IMG/VR virus record: IMGVR_UViG_3300048591_000769
Coordinates: 1-50,645 of that record
Source: a virus
Strand: one strand, 5' to 3'
DNA length: 50,645 nucleotides
This document shows positions 14,990 to 32,310 of this stretch, piece after piece (position 1 is the stretch's first letter; each line of letters starts with the position of its first letter). The notes beneath the pieces were generated by a model, which made no database searches, was not told where the DNA came from, and saw only the letters and a program-made list of their open reading frames with translations. The translations under genes were made by a program, and so were the position numbers.

Positions 14990-15196
14990 TCAGAGAGCAT
15001 TCGCAGCCTCCATGTCTCGCCGCTCCTCGATGGCGCGGCGGGCGCGGGCCTGCCGGGTGATCGCATCGCGGGGAGCGTCGACGTCCGCCCGGCGCTGCTT
15101 GCCGTGCATGCGGCGGGGACGCTGGCAGGCGGAGCACCAGAGTTCGCCGGTCGGCGTGTAGCGGGCGGGCTGGCCGGACTGGCAGGGACAGTTCAT
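14990..15196 (-). CDS. Small zinc-finger protein
   Basis: 68 residues with two Cys pairs, NCPCQSG and WCSACQRP, followed by a long basic helix rich in Arg. The ATG overlaps the stop of the Cro-like gene (ATGA), so it is the second gene of the leftward immediate-early transcript, just before the terminator. The position and a basic tail suggest nucleic-acid binding, perhaps regulation. Confidence 0.55.
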   Translation of the reverse strand: MNCPCQSGQPARYTPTGELWCSACQRPRRMHGKQRRADVDAPRDAITRQARARRAIEERRDMEAANAL

Positions 15197-15411
15197 GCGG
15201 CGCGGCCTTGGGTCTCTTGGCGAAACCGATCCGCGAGCTTCTGCACCTGGATCACGCCGGGGTTATCGATGCGACGCTGCGCCAGTTTGGTCAGCCACGA
15301 GTAGTAGCTATCCGTGTTCTCGGGACTCATTTCGGACGCAAGCGCGCGCCACGTGCCCTTCCGCGAATCGAGTTCGCGAAGGACGAAGTCGAGGAGGGTT
15401 TCGTGTTCCAT
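15193..15411 (-). CDS. Cro-like regulator
   Basis: 72 residues from the ATG at 15411. It reads as a compact helical protein, with WRALASEMSPENTDSYYSWL resembling a short helix-turn-helix and VQKLADRFRQE as a closing helix. No Shine-Dalgarno sequence is visible, and the promoter -10 lies about 11 bases upstream, so the message is probably nearly leaderless. It is first in the leftward operon and divergent from the repressor, the position of lambda cro. Confidence 0.6.
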   Translation of the reverse strand: MEHETLLDFVLRELDSRKGTWRALASEMSPENTDSYYSWLTKLAQRRIDNPGVIQVQKLADRFRQETQGRAA

Positions 15412-15421
15412 GTCCGCCACG

Positions 15422-15461
15422 ATAGCAAAAGTTTGCTAGCCCTGCAAGCAACTCATTGCTA
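15422..15461 (-). promoter_or_regulatory. Leftward promoter with two operators (oR-like)
   Basis: Two sites of the form AGCAA-N4-TTGCT lie at 15424-15437 and 15447-15460, 23 bp apart. The first extends to the 16-base palindrome TAGCAAAAGTTTGCTA. A leftward promoter reads TTGCTT (15451-15446) with TGCTAT (15427-15422) after an 18-base spacer, so both elements overlap operators. Confidence 0.7.
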
Positions 15462-15486
15462 CACCGATCGTGTAGGGTGCCGCCCC

Positions 15487-15795
15487 ATGAAGAGCTCAGT
15501 CCGCATCGTGCTGGCGGACAACTTGCGGCACCTGATGAGCACGCGTCCCGACCTCGACTCGCAACCGAAAATCGAGGCAGCTTGCGGTGTGCGCCAACGC
15601 ACCGTGAGCAACCTCCTGAACCCGGATCGAGACGACGTGAAGCATGGGCCGCGCTTGGACGTTGTGGAGATAGTGGCAAGCGCGTTCGGGCTTTCGACAT
15701 GGCAACTGCTCGTCGATCGTTCCGAGGTTGGCCAGGAAACGGCCGACTGGTTGATGCGCCCCAACTTCCCACAGCAGCCACGCAAGAAGCCGTAG
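15487..15795 (+). CDS. CI-like repressor, helix-turn-helix only
   Basis: 102 residues. DLDSQPKIEAACGVRQRTVS forms a helix-turn-helix, followed by VVEIVASAFGLSTWQLLV, the standard helices of Xre/CI DNA-binding domains. There is no S24 peptidase domain, so RecA-stimulated self-cleavage like lambda CI is not expected. It lies between two operator pairs of the same sequence and is divergent from the Cro-like gene. It probably maintains lysogeny by binding all four sites. Confidence 0.75.
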   Translation: MKSSVRIVLADNLRHLMSTRPDLDSQPKIEAACGVRQRTVSNLLNPDRDDVKHGPRLDVVEIVASAFGLSTWQLLVDRSEVGQETADWLMRPNFPQQPRKKP

Positions 15796-15864
15796 CGCCA
15801 GCCACATAAGGCCGGGCCCGGTTCTGCGTCGCGGCAGATCTGGGCGCTACATCGCGCCGCGAGA

Positions 15865-15908
15865 TAGCAATCTTTTGCTTGACAGTTCTAGCAATCTGTT
15901 GCTATCGT
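15865..15908 (+). promoter_or_regulatory. Rightward promoter with two operators (oL-like)
   Basis: AGCAA-N4-TTGCT occurs at 15866-15879 and 15890-15903, 24 bp apart. A consensus -35, TTGACA, is at 15879-15884, with a -10-like TATCGT at 15903-15908. The module closely resembles the divergent leftward module, so one repressor should control both. Confidence 0.75.
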
Positions 15909-15933: not shown

Positions 15934-16224
15934 ATGAGACAGCCCCGCCAGCAGCCGCCGGAACCGCAGTACGACACCTTCCCCGTCATCTTCAGCCGCC
16001 GGCGCCTTGCCGACATGCACGAGCGCCGCCGTGCCGCCGGTCTCGGCCGGCTGACCGACACGCAGATGCTGGCCCTGCTCATCGAGGCCGGCATCGAGCA
16101 CGAGACCGAGGCGTACCGCGAACTGCGCGAGTGCCTGGAGACCGTCCCCGCCTCGATGCGCGGGCCGGAGTGGGATCGGGCGTCCGAGCATCTGGACAGC
16201 ATGCGCCGGCGGGGGGTGCTGTGA
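15934..16224 (+). CDS. First gene of the rightward early operon
   Basis: 96 residues with GGAGGGACC just before the ATG. It contains an Arg-rich helix (FSRRRLADMHERRRAAGLG) followed by TDTQMLALLIEAG. No family is recognised. Its position, first after the repressed rightward promoter, is that of lambda N, and the Arg-rich stretch is compatible with RNA binding. I saw no convincing boxB nearby, so an antiterminator role remains speculation. Confidence 0.5.
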   Translation: MRQPRQQPPEPQYDTFPVIFSRRRLADMHERRRAAGLGRLTDTQMLALLIEAGIEHETEAYRELRECLETVPASMRGPEWDRASEHLDSMRRRGVL

Positions 16225-19154: not shown

Positions 19155-19363
19155 GCACCTACCGCACCCTGCGCGAGGCCAATGTCCTGCGCGACCACAG
19201 CAACAACACCCTCCGATTCAACCGCACCCGCGCCGACGCCGGCATGCACGGGCCGCTCGACGAGGAGTACGACGAGGAGTACGGCAACGGGGCCGGCATC
19301 CTGCTGTGGGGCGTCGTCGGGGCCGTGGTGCTGTGGATCTTCCTGCTGCTGGTGCTGGCATGA
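19151..19363 (+). CDS. Small tail-anchored membrane protein
   Basis: 70 residues. A polar N-terminus with an acidic Asp/Glu/Tyr patch is followed by a single C-terminal transmembrane helix (GILLWGVVGAVVLWIFLLLV). ATGA overlaps at both ends place it directly before the exonuclease gene. Function unknown. Confidence 0.55.
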   Translation: MSTYRTLREANVLRDHSNNTLRFNRTRADAGMHGPLDEEYDEEYGNGAGILLWGVVGAVVLWIFLLLVLA

Positions 19364-20328
19364 ACGACATCGCGGCTACCCTCGACGTCGGCCAGCTCGA
19401 CCGGCGCACCTACCTCGGATCGTCGGACGTGGCGGCCATCCTCGGGCTTTCGAAGTGGAAGACGCCGCTCGACGTGTACTTAGAGAAACTCGGCCAGGGC
19501 GTGCCGCCGGACGCCGCGAAGGAGAAGCTCTTCCGCCGGGGGAAGCGACTGGAGCCCGTCGTGCTCGACATGCTGGGCGAAGAATACGGCTACGAGATCA
19601 CCGCGCGCGGCGCGCGCTACCGCGACCCCGGGTATTCGTGGATGGCGGCCGAGATCGACGCGGAGACCGTGATCGACGGCGAGACCGTCAACATCGAGGT
19701 CAAGACCGTGCACCCGTTTGCCGCTGGCGAGTGGGGCGAGATGGAAACGGACGAGATCCCGATCCACTACGCCGCGCAGGCGATGTACGGGCTCATGATC
19801 ACCGGGCGGCAGCGCTGCATCTTCGCCGCGCTGTTCGGGGCCGACAACCTCGTGACCTACGACCTGCGGCGCGACGAGGAGACCATCGACGGAATCCGCG
19901 CGAAGGCAATCGCGTTCTGGCTGGATCACGTGCTGGCCAAGGTTCCGCCCGAGCCGATCGTGCTTGAGGATGCGCTGCGGCTCATGCGCCGCGACGTCAA
20001 CCTCATCGTCCAGGCAGACAAGGCACTCGGCGATCAGGTGTACGCCTACAAGGCGGCGAAGGCTGCGGAGAGGGTGGCGCAGGAGCGCATCAAGGAACTC
20101 CAGTTTCAGATTGCCGTGGCGTTGCTCGGGCCCGACGTGGCGAGCATGCCGAGCCGGAAGCCGAAGCATGTGATCGTGGTGGATGGCGAGCCGGCCTTGG
20201 CGCTGTCGTACCAAGAGCAGAACCGCATCGACAGCGAGGCCGTGCGCAGCCGGCACCCGGACGTCGCGGCGGAGTGCAGCAAGACGAGCAAGTTCTTCCG
20301 ATTCGACCTACCGAGGAGCAAGAGATGA
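19360..20328 (+). CDS. YqaJ-like 5'-3' DNA exonuclease
   Basis: 322 residues. The signature YLGSSDVAAILGLSKWKTP near residue 19, then RRGKRLEPVVLDM, an Asp in MAAEIDAETV, the catalytic E-V-K in VNIEVKTVH and the helix HYAAQAMYGLMITG are the YqaJ/lambda-exonuclease catalytic set. It would resect DNA ends to leave 3' single strands for the RecT partner encoded immediately downstream with an ATGA overlap. C-terminal residues 210-322 include a helical hairpin. Confidence 0.9.
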   Translation: MNDIAATLDVGQLDRRTYLGSSDVAAILGLSKWKTPLDVYLEKLGQGVPPDAAKEKLFRRGKRLEPVVLDMLGEEYGYEITARGARYRDPGYSWMAAEIDAETVIDGETVNIEVKTVHPFAAGEWGEMETDEIPIHYAAQAMYGLMITGRQRCIFAALFGADNLVTYDLRRDEETIDGIRAKAIAFWLDHVLAKVPPEPIVLEDALRLMRRDVNLIVQADKALGDQVYAYKAAKAAERVAQERIKELQFQIAVALLGPDVASMPSRKPKHVIVVDGEPALALSYQEQNRIDSEAVRSRHPDVAAECSKTSKFFRFDLPRSKR

Positions 20329-21431
20329 GCGCAGGACAGGCATTGAAGGCAGTCGCGACCGACCAGACGCCGACGAAGGCGACGCAGAATCCGGCCGTGG
20401 AGGCGCTGAACAAGGCGCTGGCCGGCATTGGGCAGGTGCTGCCGGCGCACATCACCAAGGAGCGCATGGCGAAGCTTTGCCTTGGCATGATGCGGACGAA
20501 CGCGAAACTCGCGCAGGCCGCGCGGCGCAATCCCGCCTCGTTCGTGAACTCGATCATGCACGCGAGCAAGCTCGGGCTCGAGCCCGGCATCGACGCGCAT
20601 CTCGTGCCATACGAGAACAAGCGGCAGGGCACCGTCGAGATCCAGTGCATCCCGGACTATCGCGGCCTGCTCAAACTCGCCCGCAACAGCGGCGACATCA
20701 CCAGCGTGAGCGTGCAGATCGTGTACGAGCACGACCATTTCGAGCTTTCCCTCGGATTGGTGGAGACCCTGACGCACAAGCCGAAGCTGGACGGCCCCCG
20801 CGGCGACCCGGTCCTTGTGTACGGCGTGGCCCGCTTCAAAGACGGCTCGCATCATGTCGAGTGGATGTCAGTCCAAGACATCAACACCATTCGCGACGGC
20901 AGCAGAGGCTACCAGAACGCGGTGCGCTACAAGTCCGACAACCCGTGGATTTCGTCTTGGGAGGAGATGGCACGCAAGACGCTGGTACGCCGCATGTGCA
21001 AGTACCTGCCGCGGTCGATCGAACTTCAGAACGCCGAGCGGCTGATCGATGCCGGCGACAAGGGCGTTCCCGCGCACTTCGAGGGCGAATTCGTGGTCGT
21101 CGAGGACGATGGCGGGGCCGGTGGCGAGGAGACGGGCGGCGGGCAGGTCGAGGACAAGACAAAGACCTCCGACGACCTCGACACCCGACAAGACGCAGAC
21201 CTGAAGGCCGGCATCGAGCGCCAGTCCGACGACGCGCCGACCGGCCCGAGCCTGCAGGACGCGCTGGCGCTGGTGGCGAAGGGCGACGACGCGGGGGCGC
21301 AGGATCTCGCGGGCCAGCTCGGGCCGGCGGCGAAGGCTGCCGTCGCCGAGGCCATCGAGAAGCGCAACGGGGCGCAGCAGCCGCAGCAGCGCTCCGCGCG
21401 CAGGCCGGCGCGGGACATCGCGGCCGAGTGA
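20325..21431 (+). CDS. recT: RecT single-strand annealing protein
   Basis: 368 residues. The RecT core spans about residues 30-260, with LCLGMMRTNAKLAQ, PASFVNSIMHASKLGLEPG, IQCIPDYRGLLKLARNSG and ISSWEEMARKTLVRRMCKY. The acidic and Ala-rich C-terminal tail (about 265-368) is typical of the family, where it interacts with exonuclease or SSB. With YqaJ it forms the phage homologous recombination pair. Confidence 0.93.
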   Translation: MSAGQALKAVATDQTPTKATQNPAVEALNKALAGIGQVLPAHITKERMAKLCLGMMRTNAKLAQAARRNPASFVNSIMHASKLGLEPGIDAHLVPYENKRQGTVEIQCIPDYRGLLKLARNSGDITSVSVQIVYEHDHFELSLGLVETLTHKPKLDGPRGDPVLVYGVARFKDGSHHVEWMSVQDINTIRDGSRGYQNAVRYKSDNPWISSWEEMARKTLVRRMCKYLPRSIELQNAERLIDAGDKGVPAHFEGEFVVVEDDGGAGGEETGGGQVEDKTKTSDDLDTRQDADLKAGIERQSDDAPTGPSLQDALALVAKGDDAGAQDLAGQLGPAAKAAVAEAIEKRNGAQQPQQRSARRPARDIAAE

Positions 21432-21467: not shown

Positions 21468-21872
21468 ATGCGTGAACTAACGGAACACAAGGTCAACCCC
21501 GTGAACGACCGGCTGGCAATCAACGTCGTCGACGAGCCCGGCGCGGGCGGCGCGAACCATCTGTACATGGTCGAGGGGTTCGACTCCAGCACGAATCCGA
21601 GCGATCCGTTCGTGACGCGTCACGCGGAGCCGGCGAAGCACACCACGATCCTCTTCCAGAACGGCACGATCCCGGAAGCCGGAGTCAACGGCGTGACGCA
21701 CGAGGCGCTGCTGGCCATCGTCGCGGACCGGCTGCGCAGCTTCCAGGCCGGCCCGTTCTCGTGCAAAGAGAACGCCTGCGCGCTGACCCACATCGAAGAG
21801 GCGCTGCACTGGCTGCACTCGCGCACGCTCAAGCGCATGCAGCGCGGCGTCGAGGGAACGCACAAGACGTAA
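21468..21872 (+). CDS. Possible Tad1/Acb2-type cyclic-nucleotide sponge
   Basis: 134 residues, AGGAG upstream. From memory of the family, the segment TTILFQNGTIPEAGVNGVTH, the L-x-x-I-V-x-D-R-L helix, and the C-terminal hairpin ending LHSRTLKRMQRGVEGTH resemble phage proteins carrying the Acb2/Tad1 hairpin. Characterised members bind host immune signals (gcADPR in Thoeris, cyclic nucleotides in CBASS) and block defence. It is placed between recT and the SMC-like gene. Assignment rests on motif recall and could be a related family without this activity. Confidence 0.5.
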   Translation: MRELTEHKVNPVNDRLAINVVDEPGAGGANHLYMVEGFDSSTNPSDPFVTRHAEPAKHTTILFQNGTIPEAGVNGVTHEALLAIVADRLRSFQAGPFSCKENACALTHIEEALHWLHSRTLKRMQRGVEGTHKT

Positions 21873-29103: not shown

Positions 29104-29697
29104 ATGAAGAAGACCGCAGCACCGAAGATTCCAACCACGCTGGGCGCCGCCCTCGAAGGCGGCTTCTACGCTGGCAAGATCCGCGTCGCCGGCGAGCTGT
29201 TCGCATTGATCCTGCCGCCGAAGTCGGAGAGCGGGCACGACAAGACTCCCTGGAACGACTCGACGAAGCGAGTGTCTGGCGCGATGAGCTTCTTCGACGG
29301 CGTCGCGAACACGAAGGCCATGGCCAAGGCCGGGAGCACGGTCGCGAAGTGGGCCTTGGACAACGGCATGCACATCCCAGCGCGGGACGAGCTCGAGCTG
29401 CTGTACCGCGCGTTCAAGTCCGGCAAGGCGCTGAACTACTGCTGGCGCGGGGACAACCCGTCGAGCGAGCCTGTCGGCTACGCCTACCTGCCGAAGACCC
29501 CTGCCCGCTGTGCCCTCAAGCCGTTCCAGACGGGTGGCGCGGAGTCCTTCGAGGAGAACTGGTACTGGTCGTCGACGCAGTACGCCGGCTACGACGACTA
29601 CGCCTGGTTCCAGCGCTTCGGCTACGGCTACCAGGGCGTCAACCTCAAGTCGGCGGAGTTGCGTGTCCGCGCCGTCCGCAGATTGCTCATTAAGTAA
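29104..29697 (+). CDS. DUF1566 (C-type-lectin-like) protein
   Basis: 197 residues. The N-terminus is TLGAALEGGFYAGKIRVAGE. The C-terminus WYWSSTQYAGYDDYAWFQRF followed by LRVRAVRRL is the DUF1566/Lcl module, a formylglycine-enzyme-like C-lectin fold often used as a variable binding surface. GAAAGG lies upstream. A GC hairpin (29019-29026 with 29041-29048) occupies the gap before it. No reverse transcriptase is in the window. It sits directly before the integrase. Confidence 0.75.
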   Translation: MKKTAAPKIPTTLGAALEGGFYAGKIRVAGELFALILPPKSESGHDKTPWNDSTKRVSGAMSFFDGVANTKAMAKAGSTVAKWALDNGMHIPARDELELLYRAFKSGKALNYCWRGDNPSSEPVGYAYLPKTPARCALKPFQTGGAESFEENWYWSSTQYAGYDDYAWFQRFGYGYQGVNLKSAELRVRAVRRLLIK

Positions 29698-29720
29698 TTC
29701 GGTCTTCTAGGTCTTCCAGC

Positions 29721-30728
29721 ATGGCACTACACAGCGAGCTTCCCATCTACAAGGTGGCCTACTACCTGCTCGCGCAGTCGACGGAGCGAGCCGCCGGCGG
29801 CCGGCTCAAGCGCCGATGGGTGCCGCTGTCCCGCGTCGATCAGGGGCCGGCAGCGCTGTACGAGGCGATCGCCGCCGCGCACCGCGCGCCGTCGACGAGC
29901 GCGATGCCGGCGATTATCCAGGCGTGGCGCACTGCTGCACTTCCAGGCTATGCCGTTAAGACTCGCATGGAGTACGAGCGCATGTGCGCGGTCCTTGCAA
30001 ATGGTTTCGAGGCCTTCGACGTCGCGGACGTGCGACCGACTGACGTCGCGGACTTCGTCGACCAGTGGGCCGATCGCCCCCGCGCTGGCAATGCATACAG
30101 GGCCCTGCTCGGGACGATCATGTCGTATGCCGTGCGCCGCGGGCATCGCGACGACAATCCGGTCCGGGAGATCTCCGGCCACCCGATCACCGCGCGATCG
30201 CGCTACATCGCCGACGACGAGCTGGTCGCCATCAAGGCGCACTGCTCGCCGATGACCGCCGTGCTCGTCGACCTTGCACTCGTCACCGGCCAGCGGATCG
30301 GCGACCTGCTCGCGCTGAAGTGGGCGGACGTGAAGCCGGCCGGCATCGTGTTCCGCCCGGCGAAGGTGCGAGGCTCGAGCGGTGCGGCCGTACCGATCAG
30401 GATGACGCCCAGGCTCGCCGGCGTGATCGCCCGCGCGAAGAAGGCGACGAAGGTGTCAGGCCTGTGGGTGATCTGCACGCGCCGCGGCCAGCCGCTCACC
30501 TACCACGGCGCGCACAGCGCGTGGCGCCGGGCGTGCATCGCAGCCGGCGTCGAGGGCGCGCACTTCCACGATCTTCGCCGGCGCGCACTGACCGACGCCA
30601 AGCGGCAAGGCCTGGACCCGCGCAGGCTCGGCGGGCACACCACGGACGGGATGACTCAGAGGTACATCGAGGCGGCAGGCCTGGACTGGATCGACCCGCC
30701 GGAAGCGCAAAGCGTAGACAGTGTGTAG
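29721..30728 (+). CDS. int: Tyrosine-family integrase
   Basis: 335 residues with the catalytic set in order: Arg in TGQRIGDLLALKW, Lys in the PAKVRG beta-hairpin, HFHDLRRRALTDA (His-x-x-Arg), His in LGGHTTDGM, and the nucleophile Tyr in QRYIEA. A core-binding SAM-like domain occupies about 60-160, and the N-terminus should bind arm sites. It is the last rightward gene, 49 bases before an attP core identical in form to a tRNA-Pro 3' half. No excisionase is recognised. Confidence 0.93.
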   Translation: MALHSELPIYKVAYYLLAQSTERAAGGRLKRRWVPLSRVDQGPAALYEAIAAAHRAPSTSAMPAIIQAWRTAALPGYAVKTRMEYERMCAVLANGFEAFDVADVRPTDVADFVDQWADRPRAGNAYRALLGTIMSYAVRRGHRDDNPVREISGHPITARSRYIADDELVAIKAHCSPMTAVLVDLALVTGQRIGDLLALKWADVKPAGIVFRPAKVRGSSGAAVPIRMTPRLAGVIARAKKATKVSGLWVICTRRGQPLTYHGAHSAWRRACIAAGVEGAHFHDLRRRALTDAKRQGLDPRRLGGHTTDGMTQRYIEAAGLDWIDPPEAQSVDSV

Positions 30729-31855: not shown

Positions 31856-32310
31856 GGCACGATCCCGACTTGAATGCCGCGCTTGTCGATGGTCAGCACC
31901 CGGTTGCTCGGCGCTACCGGCAGGCGGGAGATGTGGACCCACGCCCCGTACTCGTAGATGAGCTGGCCGATGCCGAGCACCGGCACCATCGCCGACAGCC
32001 GGGTGGCCACGTCGCACGGGGACCCGTAGGCCGGGCACACGAAGTCGACGGCCGCCCCGAGGGGGTGATGCCCCGACAGCGGCCGGCCTGGCGCGATCCC
32101 CGCCACCACCCGCTCGAGGTCCGGGCACCGGTACCAGCTCGTGACGATGATCGGGTGCCCAAGCACCGACCGGACGCGCTCGAGGAACTGCGCGGTCTGC
32201 CGCATCGCGCCGATCATCGCGTCGTCCGGGGTGTTGTCGATCCCCATGCGCGCAGCCGTCTGCGAGACGATCGCTTCCGCCAAAGTGAAGTGCGCCGAGA
32301 GCTGCGTCAT
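31852..32310 (-). CDS. Endolysin, M15 peptidase
   Basis: 152 residues. LSGHHPLGAAVDFVCPAYG supplies the His and Asp zinc ligands and WVHIS the second His; the SWYRCP segment is also typical of the M15A family. It would cleave peptide cross-links in peptidoglycan. No signal peptide is visible, so export depends on the holin encoded upstream. GGGAGG precedes the ATG. Confidence 0.9.
   Translation of the reverse strand: MTQLSAHFTLAEAIVSQTAARMGIDNTPDDAMIGAMRQTAQFLERVRSVLGHPIIVTSWYRCPDLERVVAGIAPGRPLSGHHPLGAAVDFVCPAYGSPCDVATRLSAMVPVLGIGQLIYEYGAWVHISRLPVAPSNRVLTIDKRGIQVGIVP

Follow-up and report, generated by a model that had tools for sequence, protein, structure and literature searches.

How would a phage control two operons from a region in which four copies of one short palindrome surround a single small gene? 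The window analysed here is a complete IMG/VR entry of 50,645 bases. A sequence-only reading had proposed that it holds a lambda-like switch, in which one repressor acting at four copies of AGCAA-N4-TTGCT shuts an operon on either side of its own gene. Comparison with other phages and prophages makes it highly probable that a temperate phage has its immunity region here, where the product of the gene at 15487 binds the four sites and shuts both operons. Three kinds of sequence evidence strongly support control of both operons by one repressor: conservation, the geometry of promoters and operators, and the swapping of cassettes.

Operators and promoters

Exact copies of AGCAA-N4-TTGCT occupy the four positions where they had been reported, and a search of the whole record returned no others. 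Dinucleotide shuffles of the record predict 0.02 copies, and none of the 100 shuffles reached at least four. Allowing one mismatch added a single copy, at 31895, far from the switch, and the 15 copies with two mismatches across the whole record are not clearly above chance (shuffled mean 9.4). The sites form two pairs, with spacings of 23 bp on the left and 24 bp on the right, also as described earlier. The operators and the promoter elements predicted around them are:

15419..15424, minus strand: left lytic promoter -10, TATCGT, extended by the TGC of the inner operator
15424..15437, no strand: left inner operator, AGCAAAAGTTTGCT, exact motif, position conserved in relatives
15442..15447, minus strand: left lytic promoter -35, TTGCAG, first base coincides with the final base of the outer operator, 17-bp spacer
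15447..15460, no strand: left outer operator, AGCAACTCATTGCT, exact motif
15460..15465, plus strand: possible weak repressor -10, TACACC, with TGC before it, predicted from geometry only
15866..15879, no strand: right outer operator, AGCAATCTTTTGCT, exact motif
15879..15884, plus strand: right lytic promoter -35, TTGACA, first base coincides with the final base of the outer operator, 18-bp spacer
15890..15903, no strand: right inner operator, AGCAATCTGTTGCT, exact motif
15903..15908, plus strand: right lytic promoter -10, TATCGT, extended by the TGC of the inner operator

Each pair does overlap a promoter-like sequence, TTGCAG-17-TATCGT on the left (minus strand) and TTGACA-18-TATCGT on the right (plus strand), the latter independently picked up by a consensus scan. 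The TTGCT of the inner operator gives the TG of the extended -10 and also supplies the base at which the -10 hexamer begins. Judged from this arrangement, the operator spacing of 23 or 24 bp is the predicted promoter spacing. Read the other way, the left pair would overlap a weak promoter of the repressor gene, whose candidate -35 (TAGCCC) is poor. The centre of the inner operator would then lie near -41.5 from the predicted start of repressor transcription, which is the place of lambda repressor bound at OR2, and the outer operator would lie over the -10. This geometry would allow the repressor first to activate and later to curb its own production.

The repressor gene and its neighbours

The two pairs flank one short gene, as had been claimed, and the genes that matter for the argument are the following:

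15193..15411, minus strand: Cro-like small helix-turn-helix (HTH) protein, 72 aa, first gene of the left operon (phrog_9425, IMG/VR relatives, alignment)
15487..15795, plus strand: repressor, 102-aa XRE-type HTH protein without a peptidase domain (PHROG, profile and structure matches)
15934..16224, plus strand: 96-aa protein from the first gene of the right operon, no significant family match
19360..20328, plus strand: RecE-like / YqaJ exonuclease (PF09588, E 2e-22; phrog_434)
20274..21431, plus strand: RecT annealing protein (PF03837, E 7e-38)
29721..30728, plus strand: tyrosine integrase (PF00589, E 2e-18; phrog_1)

The putative repressor matches PHROG 13326 (E 4e-7) and other transcriptional-regulator PHROGs, and no Pfam or NCBIfam model matched it. 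Compared with the PDB, the profile of its family finds NHTF of Neisseria best (3vk0, E 1e-8) and also matches SPC32H Rep (5d50/5d4z; E 9e-4 for 5d50). The AlphaFold2 model has a confident helical domain (pLDDT 88), for which Foldseek returned 3vk0 and 5d4z as best matches with weak E-values (E 0.07 to SPC32H Rep). Searches with tblastn reached the repressors of Tyrion and phiV10 (E 3e-5 to 2e-4), the match to phiV10 Rep being weak (E 2e-4, 37.8% over 73%). The protein is placed in a family through weak PHROG and profile matches. Across the whole record, neither an S24 peptidase (PF00717) nor a Bro-N-type antirepressor gave a match. A short-peptide scan found no close relatives of the repressor, which is too diverged for this approach, and relatives were therefore traced by way of the Cro-like protein and of the DNA motif.

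The Cro-like protein carries a conserved segment, YSWLTKLA, and its AlphaFold2 model has four helices (pLDDT 88). The name it had been given draws some weak support from phrog_9425, annotated as 'transcriptional repressor' (E 9e-10). A comparison of its structure with the PDB gave no convincing fold match, and the Cro label is doubtful. With tblastn, no match to it was found among named phages. The left operon, on the minus strand, continues with a RuvC-like resolvase, the terminase and head genes. Its description as a replication operon survives in part: an initiator stands on the Cro-like side in two relatives (L005 and L036), but no replication initiator was recognised in the left operon of the record itself.

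The right operon, on the plus strand, agrees with the earlier description of a recombination and integration operon, since besides the RecE-like exonuclease, RecT and the integrase it encodes an SbcC-like ATPase; a cytosine methyltransferase is also present. Two further genes of this side deserve mention. The 134-aa protein encoded at 21468-21872 (plus strand) has a weak match to the Acb2/Tad1 hairpin (E 4e-4, below the cut-off), and could possibly be a sponge-type anti-defence protein of the right operon. At 29104-29697 (plus strand) lies a gene for a protein of the Lcl_C/DUF1566 type (PF07603), with the integrase frame directly 3' of it. The first ~17 residues of that frame (MALHSELPIYKVAYYLL) resemble the start of an Avd protein, the accessory protein of diversity-generating retroelements. 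On the attachment side there may thus be a target of such an element, or what is left of one; no gene for a reverse transcriptase was recognised near 29104-30728.

Conservation of the operators and exchange of the cassette

Relatives of the Cro-like protein were found at 27 viral loci in IMG/VR and at five loci in bacterial genomes, the latter from metagenome-assembled genomes of Burkholderiales, Gallionella, Hydrogenophilales and Lysobacteraceae and from Stenotrophomonas maltophilia. Among the loci found through this protein, 12 have a divergent XRE repressor with a motif pair on either side (the window, L005, L006, L007, L017, L022, L026, L027, L031, L036, L037 and L039). A de novo palindrome search, to which the motif was not supplied beforehand, ranked AGCAA-N4-TTGCT first or joint first in these 12 loci, in some of them with the sites shifted in register to GCAAA-N2-TTTGC; they lie near cro and beyond the repressor. 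Half of the 12 belong to the Stenotrophomonas group. The other six (the window, L005, L006, L007, L036 and L037) have no 31-mer in common, and the motif is therefore a phylogenetic footprint and not copied DNA. The same search gave no clear four-site set in L008-L013 or in the type b loci of Stenotrophomonas described below, which may have other operator types.

The motif also leads to such loci when no protein is used as a criterion. A scan of 2.9 million IMG/VR viral contigs for a single pair, with spacings of 22-25 bp allowed, yielded 47 stretches on 40 contigs. A homologue of the Cro-like protein adjoins the pair in 33 of these contigs and was not seen in the remaining 7, and most contigs have a homologue of the repressor. 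The pairs near cro keep the promoter geometry of the window: the spacing is 23 bp in 31/33 and 24 bp in 2/33, TTG stands at the -35 in 31/33 and TANNNT at the -10 in 32/33, in a set where many contigs are related and which comprises 21 distinct hexamer combinations. The far pairs have TTG at the -35 in all 25 cases and TANNNT at the -10 in 23 of them. The far pair of the Stenotrophomonas group is spaced 31-32 bp, and there TTGACA is followed, after ~17 bp, by a TATTTT-like hexamer inside the shifted operator. On this comparative evidence, the two-pair arrangement is real and widespread, recurring in dozens of other phages.

These results bear on whether the four sites might be a product of chance, or palindromes of a generic promoter-like kind. 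Some similarity among them is to be expected, given that TTGCT overlaps the -35 and -10 elements and that promoters enforce resemblance. Yet four copies were found where shuffled sequences predict a small fraction of one, and both half-sites are exactly conserved across loci that share no 31-mers. Shuffles, palindrome search and pair scan all led us to reject a chance origin, whose probability we regard as negligible.

Several relatives depart from the two-by-two plan. In two loci, three operator-like sites precede cro (at -70, -47 and -23 in L038, and at -69, -48 and -25 in L051), spaced 21-24 bp, and L051 uses AGTAA-N4-TTACT; their sequences suggest a three-site version like that of lambda and, for L051, another operator dialect. 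A third site, with one mismatch, lies 14 bp upstream of the near pair in L079, L080, L082, L085, L088, L102 and others. Between the repressor and the far pair, L005, L007, L014, L016, L022 and L027 carry a variable set of small genes, almost none with a known family, in the position that rexAB holds in lambda. This slot is empty in the window. Its genes are perhaps accessory genes expressed during lysogeny, and candidates for superinfection exclusion.

The relation between sites and proteins can be followed in 19 prophage loci of Stenotrophomonas. Their repressors fall into three types with different recognition helices, and the half-sites differ accordingly: AGCAC/T with type a, AGCAT with type b, and AGCAA with type c (the outer and far operators of type b match poorly). 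The DNA between the pairs, repressor included, is swapped between near-identical genomes: its identity falls to 16-67% from one repressor type to another, whereas the start of cro keeps 99% identity in all types and most flanking sequence past the far pair 80-98%. Since the DNA between the pairs and the half-sites change together with the repressor type, the operators travel with the repressor. In these sequences the exchange of cassettes links operators and repressor, and the Cro-like protein, whose HTH is unchanged, would read at most the shared AGCA core.

The same loci weigh on a different assignment of roles, in which the Cro-like protein would be the main binder of the four sites and the master regulator, with the 15487 product acting elsewhere. 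Its gene is conserved alongside the module, on 33 of the 40 contigs of the pair scan, and comes first in the left operon. However, the protein is nearly identical throughout the 19 Stenotrophomonas loci, where three operator types track the repressor, and we consider this assignment very unlikely. The 15487 product is the better candidate for the protein that reads the sites.

A proposed mechanism and its known relatives

From the sites and their uniqueness, the geometry of the promoters, the conservation and the co-inheritance of operators and repressor, we infer how the switch would bind, repress, regulate itself and be induced. The 15487 product, as a dimer or a higher oligomer, would bind the four copies of the motif. 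Because the operators overlap the edge of the -35 and the extended -10, the bound protein would physically exclude RNA polymerase from both lytic promoters, and this would shut the leftward operon, which begins with the Cro-like gene, and the rightward operon for recombination and integration. Self-cleavage driven by RecA would require a larger protein than this repressor, and induction would for this reason probably proceed through an antirepressor or a falling level of repressor.

The switch is of a kind already known among phage control regions, familiar from lambda and epsilon15. As in lambda, a single motif forms two operator regions that flank the repressor gene and lie over divergent lytic promoters, a small HTH gene stands opposite the repressor, and the inner site is at about the distance of OR2. 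The description as lambda-like is right to this extent, and fails in two others: lambda has three sites per side, whereas there are two exact ones here, and the 102-aa repressor lacks the S24 domain for self-cleavage and oligomerisation found at the C-terminus of CI. There is a further difference. The cro gene of lambda belongs to the immunity region, whereas the Cro-like gene of the Stenotrophomonas relatives is not part of what is exchanged and stays the same next to all three operator types.

The gene order of the record resembles that of the Uetakevirus phages phiV10, Tyrion, BUCT711 and SPC32H. In this genus, which includes epsilon15, one also finds a gene in the position of cro, a divergent XRE repressor, and RecE/RecT; replication genes precede the Cro-position gene, and small genes lie between the repressor and RecE/RecT. 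The matches of our repressor to those of Tyrion and phiV10 (tblastn) and to SPC32H Rep (profile) are weak but agree with one another. Uetakevirus phages likewise have one inverted-repeat motif on both sides of the repressor, but it is of the type TTACC-N5-GGTAA, with tandem sites spaced ~17 bp on the cro side and arranged differently on the other. The Bro-N search recognised no counterpart of the SPC32H antirepressor in the record. For the related phage vB_EcoP_ZX5, control of lysis versus lysogeny by repressor and antirepressor has been shown by overexpression, while on the operator its authors offer speculation only (PMC9782041).

A closer parallel in the operators comes from an isolated phage of Bordetella avium, IFTN4 (L117, OM293953), which has exactly four exact sites in 43,121 bases. 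These sites (31765/31789 and 34970/34993, with spacings of 24 and 23) flank the annotated repressor, and the phage shares with the window a divergent XRE/Cro gene and, on the far side, RecT and an exonuclease. It differs in its annotated repressor of 313 codons, in several extra genes between the pairs, and in annotated antirepressors (Rha, AntA/AntB) beyond the far pair. IFTN5 and IFTN8 are relatives of IFTN4, known here as matches to the repressor. Lysogens of these Bordetella phages, IFTN4 included, have been reported to lack stable superinfection immunity (PMC10269795), although IFTN4 has the full four-site switch; a simple lambda-like repressor would predict otherwise. With pairs of 23 and 24 bp merged with the -35 and the extended -10, the window fits the same paired-operator group as IFTN4.

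Would full repression in addition need a loop, bridged by the repressor bound at both pairs, like the one that CI octamers make between oL and oR in lambda? Looping across about 440 bp had been put forward for this locus, and the presence of two pairs of the same motif on either side of the repressor, 443 bp apart or ~42.2 helical turns in the window, speaks for it. In SPC32H, the nearest relative with a studied structure, Rep forms tetramers and binds DNA as a tetramer, which the antirepressor disassembles (PMC9638917), and a bridging tetramer is therefore conceivable for a homologue of this protein. Against this, the distance between pairs ranges from 443 to 3425 bp among the window and its relatives, and no constant helical phase was seen in the 12 loci (42.2, 127.6, 72.9, 96.4, 86.9 turns and so on). 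Moreover, the repressor lacks the C-terminal domain of CI, and with an entire promoter overlapped by each pair a loop would be dispensable. Variable distance and phase neither prove nor exclude a loop; looping is possible and found no positive support, and that full repression should require it is rather unlikely. Direct occlusion of both promoters by the repressor is the reading we retain.

A broader proposal is that these phages form a widespread and undescribed class of immunity system, in which the operator is the promoter, a cassette of repressor and both operator pairs, bounded by the operators, moves from phage to phage, and a constant protein in the position of Cro does not compete for them, the choice between lysis and lysogeny being made without a contest between CI and Cro. 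We offer the proposal tentatively, as one that may well not hold. A limited literature search met no description of an AGCAA-N4-TTGCT system, which is not proof of absence. The interest of the system lies in its breadth, its merged operator and promoter, and its constant Cro-like neighbour. The operator code that it provides can be read from DNA and covers a large group of temperate phages from beta- and gammaproteobacteria: a search for the pair alone finds members and predicts where the repressor lies, and immunity groups become predictable from the operators. The isolated phage IFTN4 has this same switch, which opens the model to test at once, and with a constant Cro-like protein next to changing operators one can ask directly, by experiment, what is required of a minimal phage switch.
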